DNA of 13,187 bases from Thermoproteota archaeon (GTDB lineage: Archaea; Korarchaeota; Korarchaeia; Korarchaeales; Korarchaeaceae): contig QMVU01000006.1 in NCBI GenBank assembly GCA_003661265.1, positions 1 to 13,187 on the forward strand, read 5' to 3'. A program made the position numbers and the translations under genes. The notes under the pieces were generated by a model. The model did not search any database. It was not told where the DNA came from and saw nothing but the letters and a program-made list of their open reading frames with translations. This document shows positions 1,318 to 10,202 of the stretch, piece by piece. How positions within the stretch are numbered: the stretch's first letter is position 1; each line of letters begins with the position of its first letter.

Positions 1318-2007
1318 TTACTCCTTCTCTATTAAGGGAAGTATGCGCTCAAGCACGTAGTTTATGAAGGTCTCCTCGTCTATTTTGCTGAATATCGTCA
1401 CGACGCAGTTTCTAGTGAGTCCCACAACCAATCCATACTTTTTGTCTTCAAAGACAACGTACCATATCTTTCCATGCTTAAGGTACTCGTGATACAAGGT
1501 GGTATCCTGGAGGGCATTTCCGTAAAGGGCCAGCTTGTTTATGTTGGGCAGATCCACTTGGTCGAAGTAGATGACCTTTGTGGCCTCCGGATTGGATTCA
1601 TGCAATTCCTTTAAGGTCTCATGGGAGATCTTGGCCTCGATCACTGCTCCGGGCCTGGGAACTATTATTTCACCCAGCTTCGATGCTATGTTGTTTGCTA
1701 TCCTCCACTTCTCTACAACGAAGAGCAAAGTTGTTCCCTCCCTTTCTGTGAAGAAGAAGCCAGATTCCCTCGTAAACAGATTGTACCTTAGCTCTCCCCT
1801 GTAAGTTGTGGGGATTACCTTGTCCTCTGAGTAGATTCCCCACAGGAGATCCCTTCTGAAGTCAAGTTCCTTAACTTCGCTCATCAGCTTGAGCTCCTGC
1901 TCCCCATACTCTTCAACTCTTTCCATCCTCCAATCCTTCAGCTTCTCAGCAATAAGCTCCAATGGAACTCTCTCTTCGAGCTTAAACAGCTTTCCTGCTA
2001 GGACCAT
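1318..2007 (-). CDS. Uncharacterised archaeal protein, 229 residues
   Basis: I do not recognise a named family. The reading frame is clean, with biased codon use like its neighbours, so it is probably a real gene. The protein looks soluble: no signal peptide or membrane helix is visible. The N-terminal third is charged and helical. The C-terminal half carries alternating strand-like hydrophobic segments, including K-V-I-Y-F-D-Q-V-D-L-P, then K-I-W-Y-V-V-F-E and G-L-V-V-G-L-T-R-N-C-V-V, suggesting a compact alpha/beta domain. A TTG lies immediately upstream at 2008-2010, but ATG at 2005-2007 is preferred because a TATA-like element is centred about 26 bases upstream, which makes the mRNA leaderless at that ATG. 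It is divergent from the SMC gene across a 216-base gap, so it could share control with it. That link is only positional. Confidence 0.75.
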   Translation of the reverse strand: MVLAGKLFKLEERVPLELIAEKLKDWRMERVEEYGEQELKLMSEVKELDFRRDLLWGIYSEDKVIPTTYRGELRYNLFTRESGFFFTEREGTTLLFVVEKWRIANNIASKLGEIIVPRPGAVIEAKISHETLKELHESNPEATKVIYFDQVDLPNINKLALYGNALQDTTLYHEYLKHGKIWYVVFEDKKYGLVVGLTRNCVVTIFSKIDEETFINYVLERILPLIEKE

Positions 2008-2029
2008 CAAAGTAGGTTTCGTGGATAGG

Positions 2030-2223: not shown

Positions 2224-4038
2224 ATGCCGTCTACCTACATCAAGGAGGTAGTGCTAGAGGACTTTATGTCCTATGAGTACTCCAGAGTACCCCTTAAGCC
2301 GGGGCTAAACATAATAACAGGTCCAAATGGAGCTGGAAAATCATCAATAGTTCTTGCAATAGCTGTTGCAATGGGACAGACATATACCGAGAGGTCTAGA
2401 AGACTTAGGGATCTAATAAGGAGAGGGAAGAATGTTGCACGCGTTACGGTCGTATTTGACAACAGGCCGGTTAATGGGAAGAGGCCAATTCCCTTCTCAA
2501 GGAAGGACGAGGTGAGGATATCCAGGTACCTGAGATCAGATGGCACTTACTGGTTTGAAATGGACTATAAGCCTGTAGACAAAGCGGAAGTTGTCTACAG
2601 GCTATCTCGCCTGGGAATAAACCCGAACAACATGCTGATAATTATGCACCAGGGCATGGTGCCGGAGTTCAGCCGTCTATCCCCACAAGAGAGACTGAGG
2701 CTTGTGGAGGAAGCTGCTGGCTTACATGAATACAGAGAGAGAATACTTAGCGCCAGAGAGAAGTTAGAGGCGATAGTTAGCGAGGAGGAGTCCCTGAAGG
2801 AGCTGCTCTCAAAAAGCGAGAGGACTATGGGATATTGGGAGGAGCAATACAGAAGGCTTCTTGAGAAAAGAGAGCTTAGAAAGAAGCTTAAGGAGCTTAG
2901 GCTTGAACTTGCATGGTCTAAGTGGAATCTACAACTTAAGAACGTTGAGAAGATAGGGGCAAGAATAGCTCAAAGGGAGTTAGAGGCAAATAAATGGAAA
3001 AATAGGCTTAATGAAGCTGAGAAAAGAGTCAAAGAGGCTAGAGAGGATCTAAACAGGGCTTGGGAGTATTTAGAAGAGGCATTCATAGAATTGTCCGTAG
3101 AGGAGAGGGCTTTGGGCAGGGTAGAGGCTTCTTCAAAGGAATCGATAAAAGACGCCATGAAAAGCGTAGAGGCGGCAAGAGCTAAGGTTGAAGCTCTAAA
3201 ATCCTCCTTCTTCGAGAAACAGGAAGAGCTAGTAGAGGCATCTGTGGAGAGGGCCATAAGCGAGTTCAGGCTGAAGATGATCCAGAGCGAGATATCGAGG
3301 CTTAAGAGGAAGCTATCAGAGGCTAGACAGAAGCTTTCAGAGCTCGAAAGCGAGGCAAAAAGTTTAGGACCTAAGGTAGAAACCGAGAGGTCTCCAGATG
3401 AAATAATTCAGGAGATCAGATTCACATCAGCCAGGCTCTCAAGCTTAGCGGATGTTTCCGATGACACCGAGCAGATGTACCTGAACTACTCGAAGATGCT
3501 AGAGGAACTGAAGGAAAAAGCCAAAATACTAGCAGAGAACAAAAGAGCAGCTCTAGAAGAGCTAGAAGAGAGGAGCAGGCTTTGGAGGAGGAAGCTGAGA
3601 TCCTTAGTTAACGAAGTAAACAGGACCTTTAACGAGATACTCGAGAGGCTAGATGCTAAGGGCGAAGTAAGGCTGATCGACTTAGATGACGTGGAGCAGG
3701 CTGGCCTGAGAATCTTCGTAGGCTATAGGGGGGCTCCCTTAGCCGAGTTGGACCCATTCACACAGAGCGGGGGGGAACGAACGACAGCAATAATAGCCTT
3801 CCTGCTTGCCCTGCAAAGGCAAATGAAATCTCCAATAAGAGTGGTAGACGAATTTGATGTTCACATGGATCCAGCAAATAGAGAAAGGGTGTTCGAGCAG
3901 ATCTTCGAGATACTGAAGGAGGCTGGAGGACAAAGCATTTTCGTTACGCCTAGAAGGCTCGTAGGGCTAAAAGGGGGCACCCACATAATCGTGGTTCAAA
4001 ACGTCGCTGGAACTTCCAGGATTCGGGAGGTTAGTTAA
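2224..4038 (+). CDS. Short SMC-family ATPase, Smc5/6-like, without a recognisable hinge
   Basis: This is an ABC-type SMC ATPase of 604 residues, expected to bind and organise or repair chromosomal DNA. The N-terminal head has Walker A G-P-N-G-A-G-K-S (33-40) and Q-loop Gln143, followed by V-P-E-F-S-R-L-S. Coiled coil runs from about 165 to 290 and from about 310 to 465. The C-terminal head has the ABC signature Q-S-G-G-E-R (514-519), Walker B R-V-V-D-E-F-D-V-H-M-D-P (539-550), and F-V-T-P (573-576). The segment V-P-E-F-S resembles Smc5 (V-G-E-F-S), R-V-V-D-E resembles Smc5, D-E-F-D-V-x-M-D resembles Smc6, and F-V-T-P resembles the I-T-P of both. Normal SMC proteins have about 1,100-1,200 residues and a central hinge. 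Here the arms are about 125-155 residues each, and no hinge is seen at 290-310. Both ATP-binding halves are intact, so this is not a truncated relic. A kleisin and a Kite-like gene follow. Family assignment to SMC is firm; the Smc5/6 subgroup is inference. Crenarchaeal coalescin (ClsN) is an alternative relative. Confidence 0.92.
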   Translation: MPSTYIKEVVLEDFMSYEYSRVPLKPGLNIITGPNGAGKSSIVLAIAVAMGQTYTERSRRLRDLIRRGKNVARVTVVFDNRPVNGKRPIPFSRKDEVRISRYLRSDGTYWFEMDYKPVDKAEVVYRLSRLGINPNNMLIIMHQGMVPEFSRLSPQERLRLVEEAAGLHEYRERILSAREKLEAIVSEEESLKELLSKSERTMGYWEEQYRRLLEKRELRKKLKELRLELAWSKWNLQLKNVEKIGARIAQRELEANKWKNRLNEAEKRVKEAREDLNRAWEYLEEAFIELSVEERALGRVEASSKESIKDAMKSVEAARAKVEALKSSFFEKQEELVEASVERAISEFRLKMIQSEISRLKRKLSEARQKLSELESEAKSLGPKVETERSPDEIIQEIRFTSARLSSLADVSDDTEQMYLNYSKMLEELKEKAKILAENKRAALEELEERSRLWRRKLRSLVNEVNRTFNEILERLDAKGEVRLIDLDDVEQAGLRIFVGYRGAPLAELDPFTQSGGERTTAIIAFLLALQRQMKSPIRVVDEFDVHMDPANRERVFEQIFEILKEAGGQSIFVTPRRLVGLKGGTHIIVVQNVAGTSRIREVS

Positions 4039-4152
4039 GAGCTGTTAACATCTACTTTACCTGCATACCTGTAGACATATCTCCACTACGAAAGTCAATG
4101 AAGTGAGGTATCGATTTGCGAAACTAAGATCTGGAGTTGTCATGGAAATTGT

Positions 4153-4162
4153 CATATTTATT
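4153..4162 (+). promoter_or_regulatory. TATA box of the kleisin-Kite unit
   Basis: The element catatttatt is centred about 26 bases before the AGGTG at 4185. It predicts a transcript starting at the Shine-Dalgarno element with a leader of about 11 bases. This implies that the kleisin and Kite genes can be expressed separately from the SMC gene. Confidence 0.55.
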
Positions 4163-4184
4163 CCACCGGTTGAGTATAAGTAGC

Positions 4185-4189
4185 AGGTG
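4185..4189 (+). promoter_or_regulatory. Ribosome binding site fixing the kleisin start at 4196
   Basis: The element aggtg lies 6 bases before ATG 4196. The GTG at 4187 falls inside this element, so it is unlikely to be the start codon. Confidence 0.6.
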
Positions 4190-4195
4190 CTCTTA

Positions 4196-4999
4196 ATGAG
4201 TTCCAAGTTAAAGAAGAGGAGAGAGATCCTGCTAAGGATCTTGGATTTATGCGAGAAAGCCGTTAAGGAGGAGATGGATCCTTTCCAAGTTGATGTTGTC
4301 CAGTTGTTTGGAAAATTAAGGGAGTTGCTCCCTGAATTGGAGACCGATGAAGAGCTCTACTTGGATTTGGAGGCTGTTCTGGGTTTAACCTCAGTTATCC
4401 TGAAGCAAGATGAGTGGATTCGGTATAGGTCCTCCTTGATGTTTCTGGATCCGCTTCTAGTTCTCCTGAAAATAGAGAAGTTGGAAGATAAGGATCTCGC
4501 CGATGTGCTGAGGAGAAGTTGGCGACCAATTGTAGAGGCTAGGGGGATCTCCCCTCTCTTCCTGGAAAGAGCTTTAGAATACTGGAGATCTCTTCCAGCA
4601 CTTGATGAGAGGAAAATTGAGTTAGGAGCCGAAGAGGAGCAAACAGGAAGTTTAACTATGTCCGATCTAGAATCTCTGGGTTTTGCTTCCGAGGAGGAGT
4701 TCTTATCCTTCCTGAGGTCTGAGGAGGAGAGGCTCAGAAGGGAAGCTGATAAGAGGGGCGGGGAAGTTCCTTACTGGGAGTTCATAGGCGCTGAAACTTT
4801 TGAGGAGACTATAAGAAGGGCCTATCTAGTTAGCTTCCTTTGCAGTTATGGGAGGGCCACGATAAGGAAGGATCCGATCTCAGGCGAGATGTGGCTGATT
4901 CCTCTAGAAAAACCGATGGAGAACAAAGTTTCCCTCGCAATACCAATAGATGAAGAGATGTGGAGGAAGAGAAATGTCGGAGGCAGAACTGAGGGCTAA
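4196..4999 (+). CDS. ScpA-like kleisin (SMC-bridging subunit)
   Basis: The protein has 267 residues and looks like a kleisin, the subunit that bridges the two SMC heads. The N-terminal helical region holds D-P-F-Q-V-D-V-V-Q-L (28-37), matching the ScpA pattern D-P-W-x-I-D-I-V. It is followed by a helix rich in Leu and Glu and by L-G-L-T-S-V-I-L-K (62-70), at the place of the ScpA 'ASxLL' helix. The middle (about 140-190) is acidic and probably flexible. The C-terminal part (about 200-240: E-T-F-E-E-T-I-R-R-A, then V-S-F-L-C-S-Y-G-R-A and I-S-G-E-M-W-L-I-P) fits the winged helix that binds the second SMC head. Its length is typical of ScpA (about 240-270). It overlaps the next gene by 26 bases, which suggests coupled translation with the Kite-like protein. 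Kleisins diverge strongly, so this rests on a short motif, domain order and neighbours. Confidence 0.7.
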   Translation: MSSKLKKRREILLRILDLCEKAVKEEMDPFQVDVVQLFGKLRELLPELETDEELYLDLEAVLGLTSVILKQDEWIRYRSSLMFLDPLLVLLKIEKLEDKDLADVLRRSWRPIVEARGISPLFLERALEYWRSLPALDERKIELGAEEEQTGSLTMSDLESLGFASEEEFLSFLRSEEERLRREADKRGGEVPYWEFIGAETFEETIRRAYLVSFLCSYGRATIRKDPISGEMWLIPLEKPMENKVSLAIPIDEEMWRKRNVGGRTEG

Positions 5000-5534
5000 A
5001 TTGAAGAGAGCAGCTCACATGCTTTTCTTCAGGATCCACTCCAAGCCAGGAGTTAAGGGCTGGGAACTGAAGAAAGGCCTCGGGAAGAACTACATTCAGG
5101 TAATTGAACTCCTAAACAAGGAATTGGAGAAGATAGGCCTTAAGGTGAGGGTCATATCGCAGGAGGGAGAGGAGCCCAAAGATGAGCAAGGTTTCCTGTA
5201 TAGCAGCTTCTTCATAACATTCAAGGATCCTCCAGACTGGCCCGAGATTAGGGGATCCGGGTGGAGGATAGATGAAATGGCGGCCCTTACAGCTTGCCTA
5301 TCTTTAATTCTCTCTAGGGGCGGTAAAATTAAGAGGAAAGAGATAGATGAGCTGCTTGAAAGGAAAATACCTTCTTGGAGGGCTAGAGCAATGATCGAGA
5401 GGTTTTTCAGGATGGGATACCTTTCATTGGGCGAGGAGGACGAGGTCATCATAGGATGGAGGAGCAGGGTGGAGATAGACCTACAAAAACTCATGACCTT
5501 GCTCCTAGGGAAGGAAACAGGAAGAACCGAATGA
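4974..5534 (+). CDS. Kite-family tandem winged-helix protein, Nse3/MAGE-like
   Basis: This 186-residue protein looks like two consecutive winged helices, as in the Kite family (ScpB, MukE, Nse1, Nse3/MAGE) that binds kleisins in SMC complexes. The first domain (about 20-85) contains G-W-E-L-K-K-G-L-G, then I-E-L-L-N-K-E-L-E-K-I-G-L-K-V, like the MAGE segment in which a helix ends in F-G-L-E-L. The second (about 100-175) contains A-A-L-T-A-C-L-S-L-I-L-S-R-G-G-K-I, then R-M-G-Y-L and I-I-G-W-R-S-R-V-E-I-D. In order and spacing these match MAGE L-x-L-I-x-x-x-G, K-x-Y-L and F-L-W-G-P-R-A. The start is ATG 4974 because ggagg at 4962-4966 sits 7 bases upstream; the ATG at 4950 has no such site. The gene overlaps the kleisin by 26 bases. 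ScpB is the main alternative. No paralogous second Kite is visible, so it may act as a homodimer. Confidence 0.68.
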   Translation: MSEAELRAKLKRAAHMLFFRIHSKPGVKGWELKKGLGKNYIQVIELLNKELEKIGLKVRVISQEGEEPKDEQGFLYSSFFITFKDPPDWPEIRGSGWRIDEMAALTACLSLILSRGGKIKRKEIDELLERKIPSWRARAMIERFFRMGYLSLGEEDEVIIGWRSRVEIDLQKLMTLLLGKETGRTE

Positions 5535-5593: not shown

Positions 5594-6004
5594 GTGTCTG
5601 GAGCCTTGAAAACAGTTGGATCCTTCTTAGATCAGATGGGTGTTAAATACACCCTAGATGAGGAAAAGGGGCTTATCCTGAGCAACTGGTCAATCGAGGA
5701 TAAGCCCTTTACCGTAGGCGTTTGGACTTCCGGTCCCTGGTTGATAATAAGAGGCTATATACTTCCGAAATCAATGATACCAAGGGAAAAGGAACTTCAA
5801 CTCTACAGAGAACTGCTAAACAGTCATTATAACTTAGCAGAGGTAAGATATGACATAGATGAAGAAGGAAACATAGGGACGACCCAATCAATTCCATTGG
5901 AGGGTCTAAACATAAGCAACTTCCAATCCGAGTTTAACGCAGTTCTTTACGCAATTAAGTTCTTTCTTACGGAGATAGCAGGTAAATTAGAGATTGAAGT
6001 TTGA
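5594..6004 (+). CDS. YbjN-like domain protein, 136 residues
   Basis: The protein resembles the YbjN family, a small alpha/beta fold related to type III secretion chaperones that is common in bacteria and archaea and has no fixed biochemical role. The pattern is typical: an N-terminal helix and a short strand pair (Y-T-L-D-E-E-K-G-L-I-L), then strands around T-V-G-V-W and W-L-I-I-R-G-Y-I-L-P, then helix L-Q-L-Y-R-E-L-L-N-S-H-Y, strands in E-V-R-Y-D-I-D-E-E-G-N-I-G, and a closing long helix after G-L-N-I-S-N-F. No catalytic motif, signal peptide or membrane segment is seen. It has its own promoter 59 bases after the Kite-like gene, so co-function with the SMC complex is not implied. The start is GTG. 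Confidence 0.7.
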   Translation: MSGALKTVGSFLDQMGVKYTLDEEKGLILSNWSIEDKPFTVGVWTSGPWLIIRGYILPKSMIPREKELQLYRELLNSHYNLAEVRYDIDEEGNIGTTQSIPLEGLNISNFQSEFNAVLYAIKFFLTEIAGKLEIEV

Positions 6005-6007
6005 ATA

Positions 6008-6025
6008 AAGCCTCTTAAGCGGCTT
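6008..6025 (+). terminator. Weak hairpin after the YbjN-like gene
   Basis: The arms aagcc (6008-6012) and ggctt (6021-6025) pair across an 8-base loop, four bases after the stop codon. There is no clear T-run behind it, so a terminator role is only a guess. Confidence 0.2.
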
Positions 6026-6042
6026 AAGTTAACTTCTGAAAG

Positions 6043-6115
6043 TATGAGGCATAGAGATAAGGTCATACCTTAAATTACGACCTGCTTATTCTGCTCATTA
6101 GCTGGCAACCTCATA
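6043..6115. other. Intergenic segment with a nested pair of stems
   Basis: The arm tatgagg (6043-6049) is complementary to cctcata (6109-6115). Inside, aggtc (6060-6064) pairs with gacct (6079-6083). The 73-base span and 7-bp closing stem recall a tRNA, but no T-arm or T-loop consensus is present. It may be a small structured RNA or chance. The rest of the 6005-6242 gap shows nothing beyond the promoter near 6203. Confidence 0.2.
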
Positions 6116-6202
6116 GAGGAGACTTAAGTGACTATTCATTCTGGATCAAACAGCATGTGGTATTGGTAAGGCCCTCAATACTGGCTCTGAGCTCTCAAGA
6201 AG

Positions 6203-6214
6203 TTTAATTTTTAT
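6203..6214 (+). promoter_or_regulatory. TATA box of the ferritin-like/HAD unit
   Basis: The sequence tttaatttttat is centred about 26 bases before the AGGTG at 6232-6236. This predicts a leader of about 11 bases before the TTG start at 6243. Confidence 0.5.
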
Positions 6215-6242
6215 CTCGGAACATAAACCTTAGGTGTAGCAT

Positions 6243-6731
6243 TTGGAAGGAGAAAAACTCATTCAATTTCTGAGAAAGCAGATAGATTTGGAGAACGAAA
6301 TAGTAGAGGAGGGAAACAGGAGCGTCGAAGGTATCAGGAACGAACTTGTGAGAGAGCTAATAAGGGGAATAGCCCTTGACTCCATGAAGCGCGCGAACAT
6401 GTTAAGAGCAACAATAGCTCTGCTTTCAGGGGCTAAGATCTTCTTAACCGAAGAAAGGGAAAAGATCAGTGATCAGATAAAGAGGCATATAGAACTTGAA
6501 AAAACTGCTATGGAAACTTATTCCTCTCTACTTGACCAGGTATTGGACGAAAGGGTTAAGTTGCTTCTGGATTACATTCTTAAGGATGAGAAGAGGCATC
6601 ACCAGCTTCTCCTTAGAATAGACAACATGATAGTCAGAGCAGGGACTTTAAGAGAGAAAGACGCCTGGGACATGTTTTGGAGGTACTCTGTCTTTCACGG
6701 GCTTCAGGAGGTTGATCATCGAGTGAACTAA
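6243..6731 (+). CDS. Ferritin-like four-helix protein with an atypical metal site
   Basis: The 162-residue protein is almost entirely helical and fits the ferritin/rubrerythrin superfamily. Helix 1 has E17-N-E19, helix 2 is around L-D-S-M-K-R (45-50), helix 3 has I-E-L-E-K-T-A-M-E (83-91), and helix 4 has D-E-K-R-H-H (115-120). The second half keeps the expected Glu residues and an E-x-x-H (E116, H119). In helix 2 the matching positions appear to be Ser47 and Arg50, so half of the usual di-iron site is missing. A C-terminal aromatic tail follows, around 142-155. It may bind one metal ion, or may have lost oxidase activity. The TTG start is supported by aggtg 6 bases upstream. The HAD gene begins one base after its stop codon, so the two are probably co-translated. 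The superfamily call is good; the function is open. Confidence 0.75.
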   Translation: MEGEKLIQFLRKQIDLENEIVEEGNRSVEGIRNELVRELIRGIALDSMKRANMLRATIALLSGAKIFLTEEREKISDQIKRHIELEKTAMETYSSLLDQVLDERVKLLLDYILKDEKRHHQLLLRIDNMIVRAGTLREKDAWDMFWRYSVFHGLQEVDHRVN

Positions 6732-6732
6732 A

Positions 6733-7320
6733 ATGGCGGGATACAGGTTCTTAGTGACGGATCTAGACGGAACTCTCGTAACTCTTGACATAGATTGGGA
6801 TGAGCTGAGGGAGAAGGTCAGGAAGATAATAAAGACAGATCATCCCCTGAAACCTCTGGGCCCTAGTATCGTAGAGACCACCAGAGGTAATGAGGATCTC
6901 AGGAGAAAGGCCTTTGAGCTCGTTGAGAGGGAAGAGGTTAGAGCAGCTCTCGGAGCCTCTCCTGACCCAGAGCTCAAGGAGATGCTTTCTAGATTAAGGA
7001 AGAGAGGGGTAAAGATAGCACTTGTCACGTTACAGTCCCTTAAACCAGCTACCATAACCCTGAAGAGGTTGGGGGTCCACCACTTATTTGAGTTCTTAAT
7101 AACGAGGGAGTACTCTCTGAGTAGAAGGGAGCAGCTCTCCTTGGCAATGGATCTACTGAAAGCAAATCCAAGAGAAACCGTATTTGCTGGAGACTCCTCT
7201 TGGGATGTGATGGCAGGAAAAGAACTGGGCTGCCTTACCGTGGTTGTAGGGAGGAACATAGAGGGAGCGGACCTTTACGTTGAGAGATTCGTTGAGCTAG
7301 AAAAACTGTTCTCAGATTGA
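6733..7320 (+). CDS. HAD-superfamily phosphatase
   Basis: The 195-residue protein is a haloacid dehalogenase-type hydrolase, probably a phosphatase of the phosphoglycolate phosphatase-like group. Motif I is D10-L-D-G-T-L, with Asp10 as nucleophile and Asp12 as acid/base. Motif II is at V-T-L (98-100). The motif III basic residue is probably Arg131 or Arg132 rather than the usual Lys. Motif IV is G153-D-S-S-W-D158. The helical cap between about 15 and 80 is small (type C1). The substrate cannot be told from sequence. The gene starts one base after the ferritin-like stop. No Shine-Dalgarno lies at normal distance (aggagg is about 20 bases away), which points to coupled translation. Its last 46 bases are antisense to the end of the Lhr gene. 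Confidence 0.85.
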   Translation: MAGYRFLVTDLDGTLVTLDIDWDELREKVRKIIKTDHPLKPLGPSIVETTRGNEDLRRKAFELVEREEVRAALGASPDPELKEMLSRLRKRGVKIALVTLQSLKPATITLKRLGVHHLFEFLITREYSLSRREQLSLAMDLLKANPRETVFAGDSSWDVMAGKELGCLTVVVGRNIEGADLYVERFVELEKLFSD

Positions 7321-10202
7321 TCCTGTTCCCGCCTTCCCGTAAACCTTCTTAGAACGAGCCTTCTCCCTTCCTCGTAAAGCAGTTCGTAAAACCTGGAGGA
7401 AAGTCTGGGCTCACTCTTAAGGATCTCCTCTACCTTCTTACGCGGAAGACCGCTTGCCAGAGCTACAGCAGCTACTTTTCCGAACTTGGATATGAGGGAA
7501 GCCGTTCTCTTCAAGTCCCTCCAAATCCCTTTATTCTCCTTAGTGAGCGCCCCCTCCCTGGCTCTTGTTAGAACCAATCCGACTTCAAATTCATCGGCAT
7601 CGACCATGCCTATTCGCCTAGAACCGCATATCGGGCACTTCGGTACCTCATCCAACCTGTGAAGCTCAATTTCCTCGACGTATCCCTTACACTCAATGCA
7701 GGCAAATGTCCTGGTTTGGCTAAGCAACTCCACCCTCATCTTTGCCACCTTAAGAGTTCTCCTTCTCTCCAGAGGGACCCTCTCCAACTTTCTAGTCATC
7801 AGATCTATCCCTACTCTCGCTATAGGGCTAGGGCTTTCCAGCTCTCCAAGGCAGACTACTTCAATTTCTCCCTTAGTAATCTTCTTCAGCAGCTTTTCCG
7901 CTCCCTTGAGGTCTATGTCCCTTTCAATGGCCTCCCTAAAAGCTTCCTTATAGACCGGAGTGTCCCTTAAAGCGTCGATCAGGTTATCGACGAATTCCCT
8001 GCTAAGAGTAGCCCCCTTCTCAATTATACCCATCTTCCTAGCCGCTTGCGTTATCCTAAACCTGAAGAACCCGCTTCTCTCCATGGTTCTTCTGACAGTT
8101 TGTGAGATATCCGGCCCGCTCGCCTCCTTTAAGATGATCGAAATTTCTTCGGGGGACACCTGCCCCTTAAGGTATATCCTATAGGGATCTTCGCTAACAG
8201 CCACGGGCTTCGCAAATCTTTCGGTCAAAACCTCCGAGAGGAATCTTGAGAGAGCTCTGTTGATGAGAGTCCCTCCAAGGACGTGAACCACGACCAGGTC
8301 TTTGTATCCCTCTACAACTATCCTTCTGTCCGTTGGGACAGCATATCCAAGCCTACATTGTTCAAAAACAGGTTCTATTCCTCTAGCTATGAAATCAGGG
8401 GTAGATCCGTACCTCTTGGACAGATCCTCCGCTATTTCGAGGAGGCCCTTTCCCTCCCTGAACCCATCTTCGACGAACTTCCTAACCAGGCCAACTTCCT
8501 GTGCCACCTCATAAGGTACTGGGATCTCCTCTCCCACCCAGCTTGGAACAGCTCCTAAAAGATCTTCCGCTCTCTCAACGTATACTCGATCCTCGAAGAC
8601 TTGGATTACCTTCCAGACATCTCCGGCCATTATGAACTTGACCCCCGGCTTTCCATATTCGGCTACAAAAGGCTCGTCCAGAACACCAACGGGCTCATTG
8701 GATTCCTGATCTACAACTAGATATTGCTTTACGTCTGGTATCATGGAGAGATTCTCGAAGTAGTAGGTGTATATCCTTTCAGGAGGTCCCACCCTAAAGA
8801 ACTCGATTTCCTTAAAGGAAAGCCCCAAGAAGGGGCTTCTCATATGGGCCATGAACCTCAGCAGGTCCATAAACTCGTCAAACTCTAAGTTCCTGTAGTT
8901 ATATGCTCCCTTAACTATGGCATATACTTCCTCCACGCTCCACCTCTTCTTTGTGAGGAGAAATCCAACTATTTCGTGCATTAGAGCATCTAGGGGCTTC
9001 TCAGGTATCTTTACAGGTTCAAGTTCCTCGGACATAGCCCTTCTAGCCACAACTAGGGCCTCAATTGCGTCATCAGGGTTCTGGACTATCACCGTGCCCT
9101 TCGAAACCGCGCCTATCCTGTGCCCACTCCTGCCAACCCTTTGGACTAAACGCGTCGCCTGCCTCGGGGAGTTGTACTGTATCACCATATCGATAGATCC
9201 TATGTCTATGCCAAGTTCCAGACTTGATGTAGCTATTAACGCCTTAAGACTCCCTGACTTAAGACCTCTTTCCGCCCTAAGCCTGCTCTCAAGAGCTAGA
9301 GATCCGTGATGTACGTTTATTGGCATGGAAACATCCCAGAGCTTGAAACGACTCCCGAGAACTTCGGTCATAGGCCTGGTGTTAGTGAATATAAGGCAGG
9401 ATCTTGAGGCCTCTACAATTTCCTTTATGCAACGGAGTCTGGCTGCAACATCAGGATATGTGTAAAGCTTCGAGGCAAGCTTGATGTCCTCTGGGAAGGG
9501 CTCTGGATAAGCTATCTCAACCTTCATAAGCTTGGTGATGGGCACGTATATCGTCTCGCAGGAACCTGAGGATCCAACTAGAAAACGAGCAACAGCCTCT
9601 GGGGTTCCAACAGTTGCTGAAAGCCCTATTATCTGGAAATCACCTTTTTTCAACCACTTCAATCTTTCAAGAGCTAAAGCAAGTTGGGCTCCCCTTTTGC
9701 TCTCAGCTAACTCATGAACCTCATCTACTATGACGTGTCTCACGGTTAGCAGGTTCTCTCTAAGCTTTCTACCCACAAGCATTATCTGCAAGGTCTCCGG
9801 TGTCGTTACCATTATATCTGGTGGCATTTCTGCTTGAGTTCTCCTCTCCCTAACCGAGGTGTCCCCATGCCTGACTCCTATGGAAAGATCCAGTTTGCTA
9901 CACCACCATTGAAGCCTGTCCATTAAATCTCGATTTAGAGCCCTCAAGGGAGTAATGTATAAGACTTTGACGCCCCTCACCCCCCTTTCTTCCAGAAGTT
10001 TGCTTAATATGGGGAGAAAAGCCGCCTCAGTCTTACCTGTTCCAGTCGCTGCTATTAGAAGAACGTTTTTCCCTTCTAATATGGGCTTAATGGCCTTGGC
10101 TTGCGGATCTGTCGGTTTAATGAAACCCCTTTCCTCAATGAGTCTCTTGACTGGCTCTGCGAGCATTTCAAACGCGTTTGAGTTGTCGGAAATTGATTTC
10201 AT
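7275..10202 (-). CDS. lhr: Lhr-type superfamily 2 DEVH helicase (archaeal ASH-Ski2 class)
   Basis: This 975-residue protein carries the full SF2 helicase set. Walker A is A-A-T-G-T-G-K-T (51-58), motif Ia is T-P-L-R-A-L, T-T-P-E is at 133-136, motif II is D-E-V-H (160-163), and motif III is S-A-T (195-197). F-T-N-T-R is near 272, T-S-S-L-E-L-G-I-D is at 325-333, and motif VI is Q-R-V-G-R-S-G-H-R (354-362). A winged helix and the Lhr core domain should follow. Four cysteines, C835-x2-C838 and C856-x2-C859, form a likely zinc-binding site, followed by a C-terminal domain and a Ser-rich tail. Lhr proteins are ATP-driven 3'-5' translocases implicated in nucleic-acid repair and RNA metabolism. The length is slightly above usual (about 850-950). 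ATG 10202 has a TATA element about 30 bases upstream (nearly leaderless). Assignment to aLhr1 or aLhr2 was not attempted. Confidence 0.95.
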   Translation of the reverse strand: MKSISDNSNAFEMLAEPVKRLIEERGFIKPTDPQAKAIKPILEGKNVLLIAATGTGKTEAAFLPILSKLLEERGVRGVKVLYITPLRALNRDLMDRLQWWCSKLDLSIGVRHGDTSVRERRTQAEMPPDIMVTTPETLQIMLVGRKLRENLLTVRHVIVDEVHELAESKRGAQLALALERLKWLKKGDFQIIGLSATVGTPEAVARFLVGSSGSCETIYVPITKLMKVEIAYPEPFPEDIKLASKLYTYPDVAARLRCIKEIVEASRSCLIFTNTRPMTEVLGSRFKLWDVSMPINVHHGSLALESRLRAERGLKSGSLKALIATSSLELGIDIGSIDMVIQYNSPRQATRLVQRVGRSGHRIGAVSKGTVIVQNPDDAIEALVVARRAMSEELEPVKIPEKPLDALMHEIVGFLLTKKRWSVEEVYAIVKGAYNYRNLEFDEFMDLLRFMAHMRSPFLGLSFKEIEFFRVGPPERIYTYYFENLSMIPDVKQYLVVDQESNEPVGVLDEPFVAEYGKPGVKFIMAGDVWKVIQVFEDRVYVERAEDLLGAVPSWVGEEIPVPYEVAQEVGLVRKFVEDGFREGKGLLEIAEDLSKRYGSTPDFIARGIEPVFEQCRLGYAVPTDRRIVVEGYKDLVVVHVLGGTLINRALSRFLSEVLTERFAKPVAVSEDPYRIYLKGQVSPEEISIILKEASGPDISQTVRRTMERSGFFRFRITQAARKMGIIEKGATLSREFVDNLIDALRDTPVYKEAFREAIERDIDLKGAEKLLKKITKGEIEVVCLGELESPSPIARVGIDLMTRKLERVPLERRRTLKVAKMRVELLSQTRTFACIECKGYVEEIELHRLDEVPKCPICGSRRIGMVDADEFEVGLVLTRAREGALTKENKGIWRDLKRTASLISKFGKVAAVALASGLPRKKVEEILKSEPRLSSRFYELLYEEGRRLVLRRFTGRREQDQSENSFSSSTNLST

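Follow-up and report, generated by a model that had tools for sequence, protein, structure and literature searches.

A three-gene archaeal locus that probably encodes a reduced, hinge-less SMC-kleisin-Kite complex of the Smc5/6 type

Introduction

Smc5/6 is a DNA-handling machine for chromosome repair in eukaryotes. Three adjacent genes in a 13,187-nucleotide stretch of DNA (the window, contig C6), which comes from the 71%-complete genome of an uncultured archaeon, raise the question of whether archaea possess a full machine of this type, with an SMC ATPase and its own kleisin and Kite partners, and in what form. Archaeal SMCs related to Smc5/6 are already in print: the portion of PMC9389158 considered here distinguishes a canonical and an SMC5/6-related group, citing a 2021 paper. 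The titles and abstract openings that the literature searches covered contained no archaeal partners of the Nse4/Nse3 type; a study of archaeal ancestors of SMC complexes (van Hooff et al. 2025, Cell Reports 44:115855) and the work of Yoshinaga and Inagaki 2021 may overlap with the present findings. Our analysis identifies a well-supported Smc5/6-type SMC-kleisin-Kite module, and in all likelihood the three genes encode a complex of this type in a reduced, hinge-less form.

Three adjacent genes on one strand

A preliminary description of the window had placed an SMC, a kleisin and a Kite gene next to one another on one strand, and the three open reading frames (ORFs) were confirmed on the plus strand at 2224-4038, 4187-4999 and 4950-5534. 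With the start codons adopted here, the genes are as follows.

2224..4038, plus strand: Smc5/6-type SMC ATPase, 604 amino acids, without a detectable hinge domain and without a zinc hook (PF02463, PDB, profile and tree)
4196..4999, plus strand: Nse4-type kleisin, 267 amino acids, in an ORF open from GTG 4187 (profile A8, Nse4_C and C-terminal winged helix)
4974..5534, plus strand: Kite protein, tandem winged-helix, Nse3/Nse1-like, 186 amino acids, in an ORF open from ATG 4950 (194 amino acids)

For the kleisin, ATG 4196 was preferred over GTG 4187, in agreement with a homologue of 267 amino acids (P0001). The Kite start used in the analysis was ATG 4974 instead of ATG 4950, from which the gene overlaps the kleisin gene by 26 bases. 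Scans for sigma-70 promoters and terminators gave no greater signal than in shuffled sequence.

An Smc5/6-type head without a detectable hinge

The SMC protein matches PF02463 (SMC_N, Pfam) at 111.8 bits, over a cut-off of 40. Its Walker A motif is GPNGAGKS, and its Walker B motif, VVDEFDVHMDPANRERVF, which reads DEFDVHMDP, fuses a Smc6-like DEFDVxMD to a Smc5-like MDPxNxxRVF, as against DEIDAHLD or DEVDAHLD, for example, in canonical SMCs. The best PDB chain for the single sequence is a Smc5 (9lwi_I, 8.2e-32). A profile (A10) was built from 31 short relatives of the window protein, here termed mini-SMCs. Its top PDB scores are 246 bits for Smc6, 238 bits for Smc6 and 237 bits for Smc5 (presumably human, yeast and yeast chains, respectively), and rows 1 to 9 are all Smc5 or Smc6. 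The next SMC head, 5xei_A, scores 221 bits, the eleventh row is a further Smc5 (199.5 bits, which we take to be human), and lower scores are found for Smc2 (193 bits), Smc3 (163), Smc4 (150), Smc1 (144) and Rad50 (73). As a control, the canonical archaeal SMC L015 retrieved 45 PDB chains at E ≤ 1e-10, with no Smc5 or Smc6 among them. The Walker B motif and profile A10, together with the approximately unbiased (AU) tests given below, agree with the preliminary description, which had reported head motifs of the Smc5/6 kind instead of the canonical one.

SMC_hinge is absent from the 22 Pfam matches of the window SMC at E ≤ 1, and it is likewise absent from the 25 Pfam families commonest among the 31 mini-SMC members (144 rarer families lie outside this set). 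The same model was matched by the positive controls, namely two SMCs encoded in Asgard operons (2.8e-13 and 1.1e-10), a full-length Lokiarchaeota SMC (8.8e-8) and L015 (5.3e-17). The region between the two parts of the head spans 259 residues in the window SMC and 212-328 residues in 24 mini-SMC entries, versus 782-903 residues in 23 full-length SMCs, and this length separates hinge-less from hinged SMCs; glycine and proline content alone gives no clean separation. A CxxC zinc hook between the heads was found in none of the 24 mini-SMC entries (23 distinct).

Relatives that lack the trio encode SMC-like proteins of 768 amino acids. Their identification as Rad50 was ruled out, and because they score 480 bits against SMC_prok_A (NCBIfam), they are regarded as short canonical-type SMCs. 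Within the family of the window, L104, L107, L109 and L111 carry such canonical-type SMCs of 764-768 amino acids with a middle region of 420-440 amino acids, a separate shortening, which in the head tree falls among the canonical SMCs.

An Nse4-type kleisin and a tandem winged-helix Kite

Among 24,736 Pfam models, Nse4_C ranks first for the kleisin, at an E value of 0.07 that is below the cut-off. Nse4_C is matched by 27 of 41 kleisin relatives (best 2.7e-5), and no other kleisin family in Pfam is matched by any of the 41 at E ≤ 0.1, SMC_ScpA included; none of five canonical archaeal ScpA proteins used as controls matches Nse4_C. When the kleisin profile (A8) was compared with the PDB, the first four entries were Nse4 proteins, followed by N-terminal and C-terminal domains of ScpA, with an E value of 0.0066 for the N-terminal domain (6ivh_A). 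In the structure model, the C-terminal end forms a winged helix of the kleisin type that fits both ScpA-C and Nse4. The features of the kleisin superfamily are thus present, with a C-terminal winged helix and an N-terminal helical domain, and capping of the SMC head is putative. Gene 4196..4999 encodes an Nse4-type kleisin, an assignment that is weak from the single sequence and carried by the relatives, profile and fold.

For the Kite, MAGE is the top of the 24,736 Pfam models (E 0.05, below the cut-off), and with the 186-amino-acid start no Pfam family remains at E ≤ 0.1. MAGE is matched by 4 of 34 Kites and SMC_ScpB by one (E 0.055). Because this Pfam support is thin, the assignment rests on the fold and, weakly, on the PDB profile. 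The structure model is a tandem winged-helix protein with Nse3 as its closest match, and it also matches JetB (8dk1_F, 8as8_C). It thereby shows the tandem winged-helix domains that define the Kite superfamily; kleisin binding is putative. A canonical ScpB used as a control reached 7.4e-38 against SMC_ScpB and, in a set of 18 sequences, did not match the Kite profile A9 (E 0.44). No RING domain was matched by the 186-amino-acid Kite in Pfam. The earlier comparison of the third gene with Nse3/MAGE therefore holds for the fold, with weak support from sequence.

Linkage and spread among archaea

The linkage of the three genes is far beyond chance. Among 29 genomes of the window's own phylum, the mini-SMC occurs in 15 (E ≤ 7.1e-92), the Kite in 14 and both in 13, and the three exceptions to co-presence sit at contig ends; in one genome (G005) the two genes lie on separate contigs. 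The trio is also clustered in contigs labelled Thermofilales, Thaumarchaeota UBA160 and Bathyarchaeota. In the phylum of the Bathyarchaeota record, 349 genomes contain the SMC in 143, the kleisin in 142, the Kite in 141 and all three in 137, while 202 have neither SMC nor Kite (Fisher p 1e-83, which ignores kinship). Kleisin and Kite are adjacent on the same strand in 137 of 140 cases, and in 123 of 136 the gene order is as in the window, with the SMC (best piece listed) no more than 1.5 kb from the kleisin. Most genomes of the own phylum and of the 349-genome set have one Kite match and a single mini-SMC, whole or in two halves; G004 of the own phylum has more than one mini-SMC.

The counts for the 349 genomes were made with three SMC candidates per genome and leave out the second halves of split SMC hits, as well as weaker second hits or pieces of G098 and G361 (Kite) and of G204, G207, G233 and G090 (kleisin). 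For the kleisin of G090, the piece adjoining the Kite was kept instead of a higher-scoring one on another contig, and the SMC places of G186, G275 and G298 were counted for presence only. A separate survey of 593 sequence stretches gave 102 relatives and 80 loci, mostly of bacterial SMC, and neighbourhoods were therefore drawn mostly from genome searches; three of its six scanned archaeal loci hold the trio.

A hinged SMC was found in 147 of the 349 genomes, a count that weak hinges may escape. Both kinds of SMC occur in 69 genomes, the mini-SMC only in 74, the hinged SMC only in 78 and neither in 128, so that 69 of the 143 genomes with a mini-SMC also carry a hinged one. In the Bathyarchaeota genome G031, one contig (contig 12, L263) carries a hinged SMC of the canonical kind next to a ScpA gene, and another (contig 10, L283) carries the mini-SMC trio. 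Wells et al. 2017, in the part of PMC5228436 considered here, did not settle whether Smc5-6 forms a branch separate from cohesin and condensin; a complete archaeal gene set that has a kleisin and a Kite of its own and coexists with a hinged SMC in these 69 genomes makes the question testable.

Hinged forms of the operon were found in the phylum of the Lokiarchaeota record, which we take to be Asgard. A Smc5/6-type operon SMC is present in 4 of 176 genomes, with lengths of 831, 832 and 840 amino acids and one truncated at 761, and in all four the kleisin and Kite matches come next. Pfam detects the hinge in two of the four, and the corresponding segment of the other two shows 82-94% identity. 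In the three operons with enough contig, an ORF of 461-463 amino acids (L250 119-1507; L277-L279) lies immediately before the SMC gene, with a slight overlap; a scan of one of them identified an AAA ATPase. Downstream of two full-length Asgard SMCs (L275, L276) lie ORFs with Kite-profile matches of 24 bits, and the ORFs in the kleisin position score just 3.9 and 10.7 bits against the kleisin profile.

Two further arrangements were seen in G004. L135 (contig 25) contains at 907-2118 a second, divergent operon with a kleisin of 404 amino acids, whose long N-terminal extension resembles, by eye, a winged-helix regulator. In L134 (contig 8), an ORF at 8564-9367, which on inspection by eye looks like a RecA/KaiC-like ATPase, is flanked by the Kite gene and a gene with a weak likeness to kleisins.

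Head phylogeny and the origin of eukaryotic Smc5/6

The head tree comprises 62 proteins and 320 columns (LG+F+G4, rooted on Rad50), with support given as SH-like approximate likelihood ratio test/ultrafast bootstrap (SH-aLRT/UFB). It excludes the truncated Asgard protein, duplicates, P0146 (identical to L178) and L269, and contains no ASRP. Canonical SMCs form a clade at 98.8/100. The window mini-SMC group falls inside a Smc5/6-type clade (92.8/99) that is composed of four full-length Asgard SMCs, the hinged Asgard operon SMCs, the mini-SMCs and eukaryotic Smc5/6, and the window SMC thus stands apart from canonical SMC and Rad50. Eukaryotic Smc5/6 join the main mini-SMC group at 95.3/96, and the hinged Asgard operon SMCs pair with two divergent mini-SMCs at just 26.3/67. 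Under LG+C20 with a guide tree, UFB values are 100 for the canonical clade, 99 for the Smc5/6-type clade and 98 for eukaryotes with the main mini-SMC group. Monophyly of Smc5 and Smc6 is not resolved under LG+C20 and is weak under LG+F+G4 (6.1/71). The AU test rejects a grouping of mini-SMC with canonical SMC apart from eukaryotes (p 0.0021), of mini-SMC with Rad50 (p 0.0003) and of eukaryotic Smc5/6 with canonical SMC (p 0.0022).

Several results weigh against the assignment of the trio or against its closeness to the eukaryotic complex. The AU test does not reject eukaryotes with the Asgard operon SMCs (p 0.249) or with the full-length Asgard SMCs (p 0.067), the eukaryotic branches are long, and four Smc5/6 sequences are in the tree. 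For the Kite, the sequence evidence by itself is weak (best PDB-profile E 0.0067; the few MAGE matches above), and the kleisin model is weak outside the C-terminal domain (predicted local distance difference test 73.8, predicted template modelling score 0.40). The SMC hinge appears to have been lost, a conclusion drawn from sequence. Moreover, one euryarchaeal group departs from the linkage that is kept in other relatives. In the phylum of G034 (Euryarchaeota record), the mini-SMC is present in 13 of 148 genomes (E ≤ 8.9e-84), and at none of 10 loci does a kleisin or Kite gene lie closer to the SMC than about 1.5 kb; when wider flanks were read in 9 genomes, the kleisin-Kite pair was absent from those of 8. 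The pair lies about 5 kb downstream of the SMC in G626, and on another contig in G607 (about half of the genome read; kleisin 5.8e-83, Kite 1.2e-65). It therefore persists in at least two euryarchaeal genomes, and the three-gene cluster is not universal.

In our judgement it is an evenly balanced proposition that archaea outside Asgard widely keep a full Smc5/6-type machine beside or instead of Smc-ScpA, so that its core predates eukaryotes, with a hinge-less, clamp-only complex as the common form. A live, if tentative, possibility is that the trio is of the Smc5/6 type while eukaryotic Smc5/6 came from the hinged Asgard versions, which would make the mini form a side branch that lost the hinge. 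The four Asgard genomes with a hinged operon SMC and the two groupings that the AU test left standing speak for such an origin; the best trees speak against it, since they join eukaryotes to the mini-SMC group, although long branches may cause this grouping. The head tree, the partner folds and the linkage in relatives did not contradict the earlier interpretation of the locus as one complex related to the ancestor of eukaryotic Smc5/6, and this interpretation is supported, with qualifications: the physical complex is putative, the SMC and the Kite are each single, the hinge is undetected, the cluster is split in one euryarchaeal group, and hinged Asgard forms may have a closer tie to eukaryotes. 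In either case, a gene set common to many archaea bears on the origin of the eukaryotic chromosome-repair machine.

Comparison with other SMC systems

Compared with the eukaryotic Smc5/6 core (Smc5, Smc6, Nse4, Nse1 and Nse3), the trio shares the head type, the Walker B motif, an Nse4-type kleisin and a Kite of the Nse3/Nse1 type. It differs in having one SMC gene instead of the Smc5 and Smc6 pair, one Kite without a RING match instead of Nse1 (RING) plus Nse3, an undetected hinge and much shorter arms, and strictly defined it falls outside the Smc5/6 complex. The archaeal SMC5/6-related SMCs of PMC9389158 likewise cluster with Smc5 and Smc6 apart from canonical SMC; the portion of that paper considered here mentions neither partners nor a missing hinge for them.

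In archaeal and bacterial Smc-ScpA-ScpB, too, neighbouring genes encode the SMC, the kleisin and the Kite, yet its SMC clade, kleisin family and Kite family are different, and both kinds of system occur within one genome. It is improbable that the trio is a fast-evolving canonical Smc-ScpA-ScpB minus its hinge, whose likeness to Smc5/6 is an artefact. SMC_prok_A is indeed the best NCBIfam model for the window SMC (230 bits, under the cut-off of 729), and ScpA and ScpB occur among the weaker partner matches. That cut-off does not discriminate, because the true canonical L015 (556 bits) also falls below it. The AU rejection of the canonical grouping, the failure of L015 to find Smc5/6, the 69 genomes with a hinged SMC beside the mini-SMC, and the different Pfam families of ScpA and ScpB from another phylum all argue against a canonical origin. 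For archaeal Smc-ScpA, the part of PMC7055376 considered here argues that it works generally without a Kite; to that view the trio adds an archaeal SMC system with a Kite.

We think it very unlikely that the locus is an SMC system directed against plasmids or phages, such as Wadjet/MksBEF or a Lamassu-like system. Wadjet (JetABCD/MksBEF) likewise combines SMC, kleisin and Kite, the Kite model matches JetB, and PADLOC models are matched by the SMC (mad3 135, LmuB 112 and JetC 47 bits) and by the helicase at 7275-10202 (BrxH 336 bits). However, a canonical-type SMC gives the same generic matches (mad3 216, LmuB 77 bits), and at E ≤ 0.01 PADLOC yields no match for the kleisin, the Kite, the 230-amino-acid neighbour or five more small or metabolic window genes, so that the helicase is the only scanned neighbour with a defence-family match; the gene order is stable in 137 of 349 genomes. 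It is hardly credible that the ATPase is a Rad50 or a short archaeal SMC-like ATPase of the ASRP type (coalescin/ClsN, Sph) followed by unrelated winged-helix genes, since its length near that of the ASRP model (593 positions) and its low NCBIfam scores for Rad50 (70 bits) and ASRP (62 of the 300 bits needed) are set against the AU rejection of the Rad50 grouping (in a tree without ASRP), the co-occurrence of the partner genes with the SMC, and the missing CxxC motif, most ASRPs having a zinc hook according to the portion of PMC9389158 considered here.

A possible clamp without a ring

In the SMC architecture summarized in the part of PMC10512200 considered here, the kleisin bridges the two SMCs, joined to one at the neck and to the other at the cap, Kites join the DNA clamp, and the ring is bounded by arms, hinge and kleisin subcomplex. 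By analogy, two copies of the short SMC may engage head to head around ATP. The kleisin would contact one head at the neck through its N-terminal helical part and cap the other head with its C-terminal winged helix, and the Kite would sit on the kleisin middle, helping to keep DNA atop the engaged heads. Without a hinge, a ring of arms and hinge could not form as usual, and DNA would therefore be held mainly in the head-kleisin-Kite clamp, which ATP may open and close. The putative complex would thus retain the clamp but not the ring that a hinge closes, and it offers a test of how far SMC action depends on a ring at all.

The complex probably serves genome maintenance and not bulk chromosome folding, given that a hinged SMC accompanies the mini-SMC in about half of the genomes that have one.

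Neighbouring genes

Two further genes of the window recur near the trio.

1318..2010, minus strand: conserved neighbour, candidate accessory factor, 230 amino acids, divergent from the SMC gene
7275..10202, minus strand: Lhr-like helicase, candidate functional partner, 975 amino acids, convergent with the operon

The genes at 5594-7317 were kept out of the system because, among the loci compared, they had matches only in a genome of the same genus. Of 32 loci with enough sequence around the SMC, 17 have a homologue of the 230-amino-acid neighbour no more than 5.5 kb from the SMC gene, and homologues also occur in three euryarchaeal genomes; the loci include L142, L141, L283-L285, L288, L290, L293, L295, L296 and L300, as well as L335, L336 and L345 (L011 was left out of the neighbour comparison as a duplicate of L283). 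The protein has no significant Pfam or PDB match, and it is possibly a fourth component or accessory factor. The helicase matches the NCBIfam ATP-dependent helicase model PRK13767 at 515 bits (cut-off 849), and we take it to be Lhr-like. In 19 of 36 loci, which come from both phyla sampled, a similar and mostly convergent ORF lies at most 3 kb from the Kite, and the helicase is possibly a functional partner. This proximity and the kinship to Smc5/6 point weakly to a role of the trio in repair.

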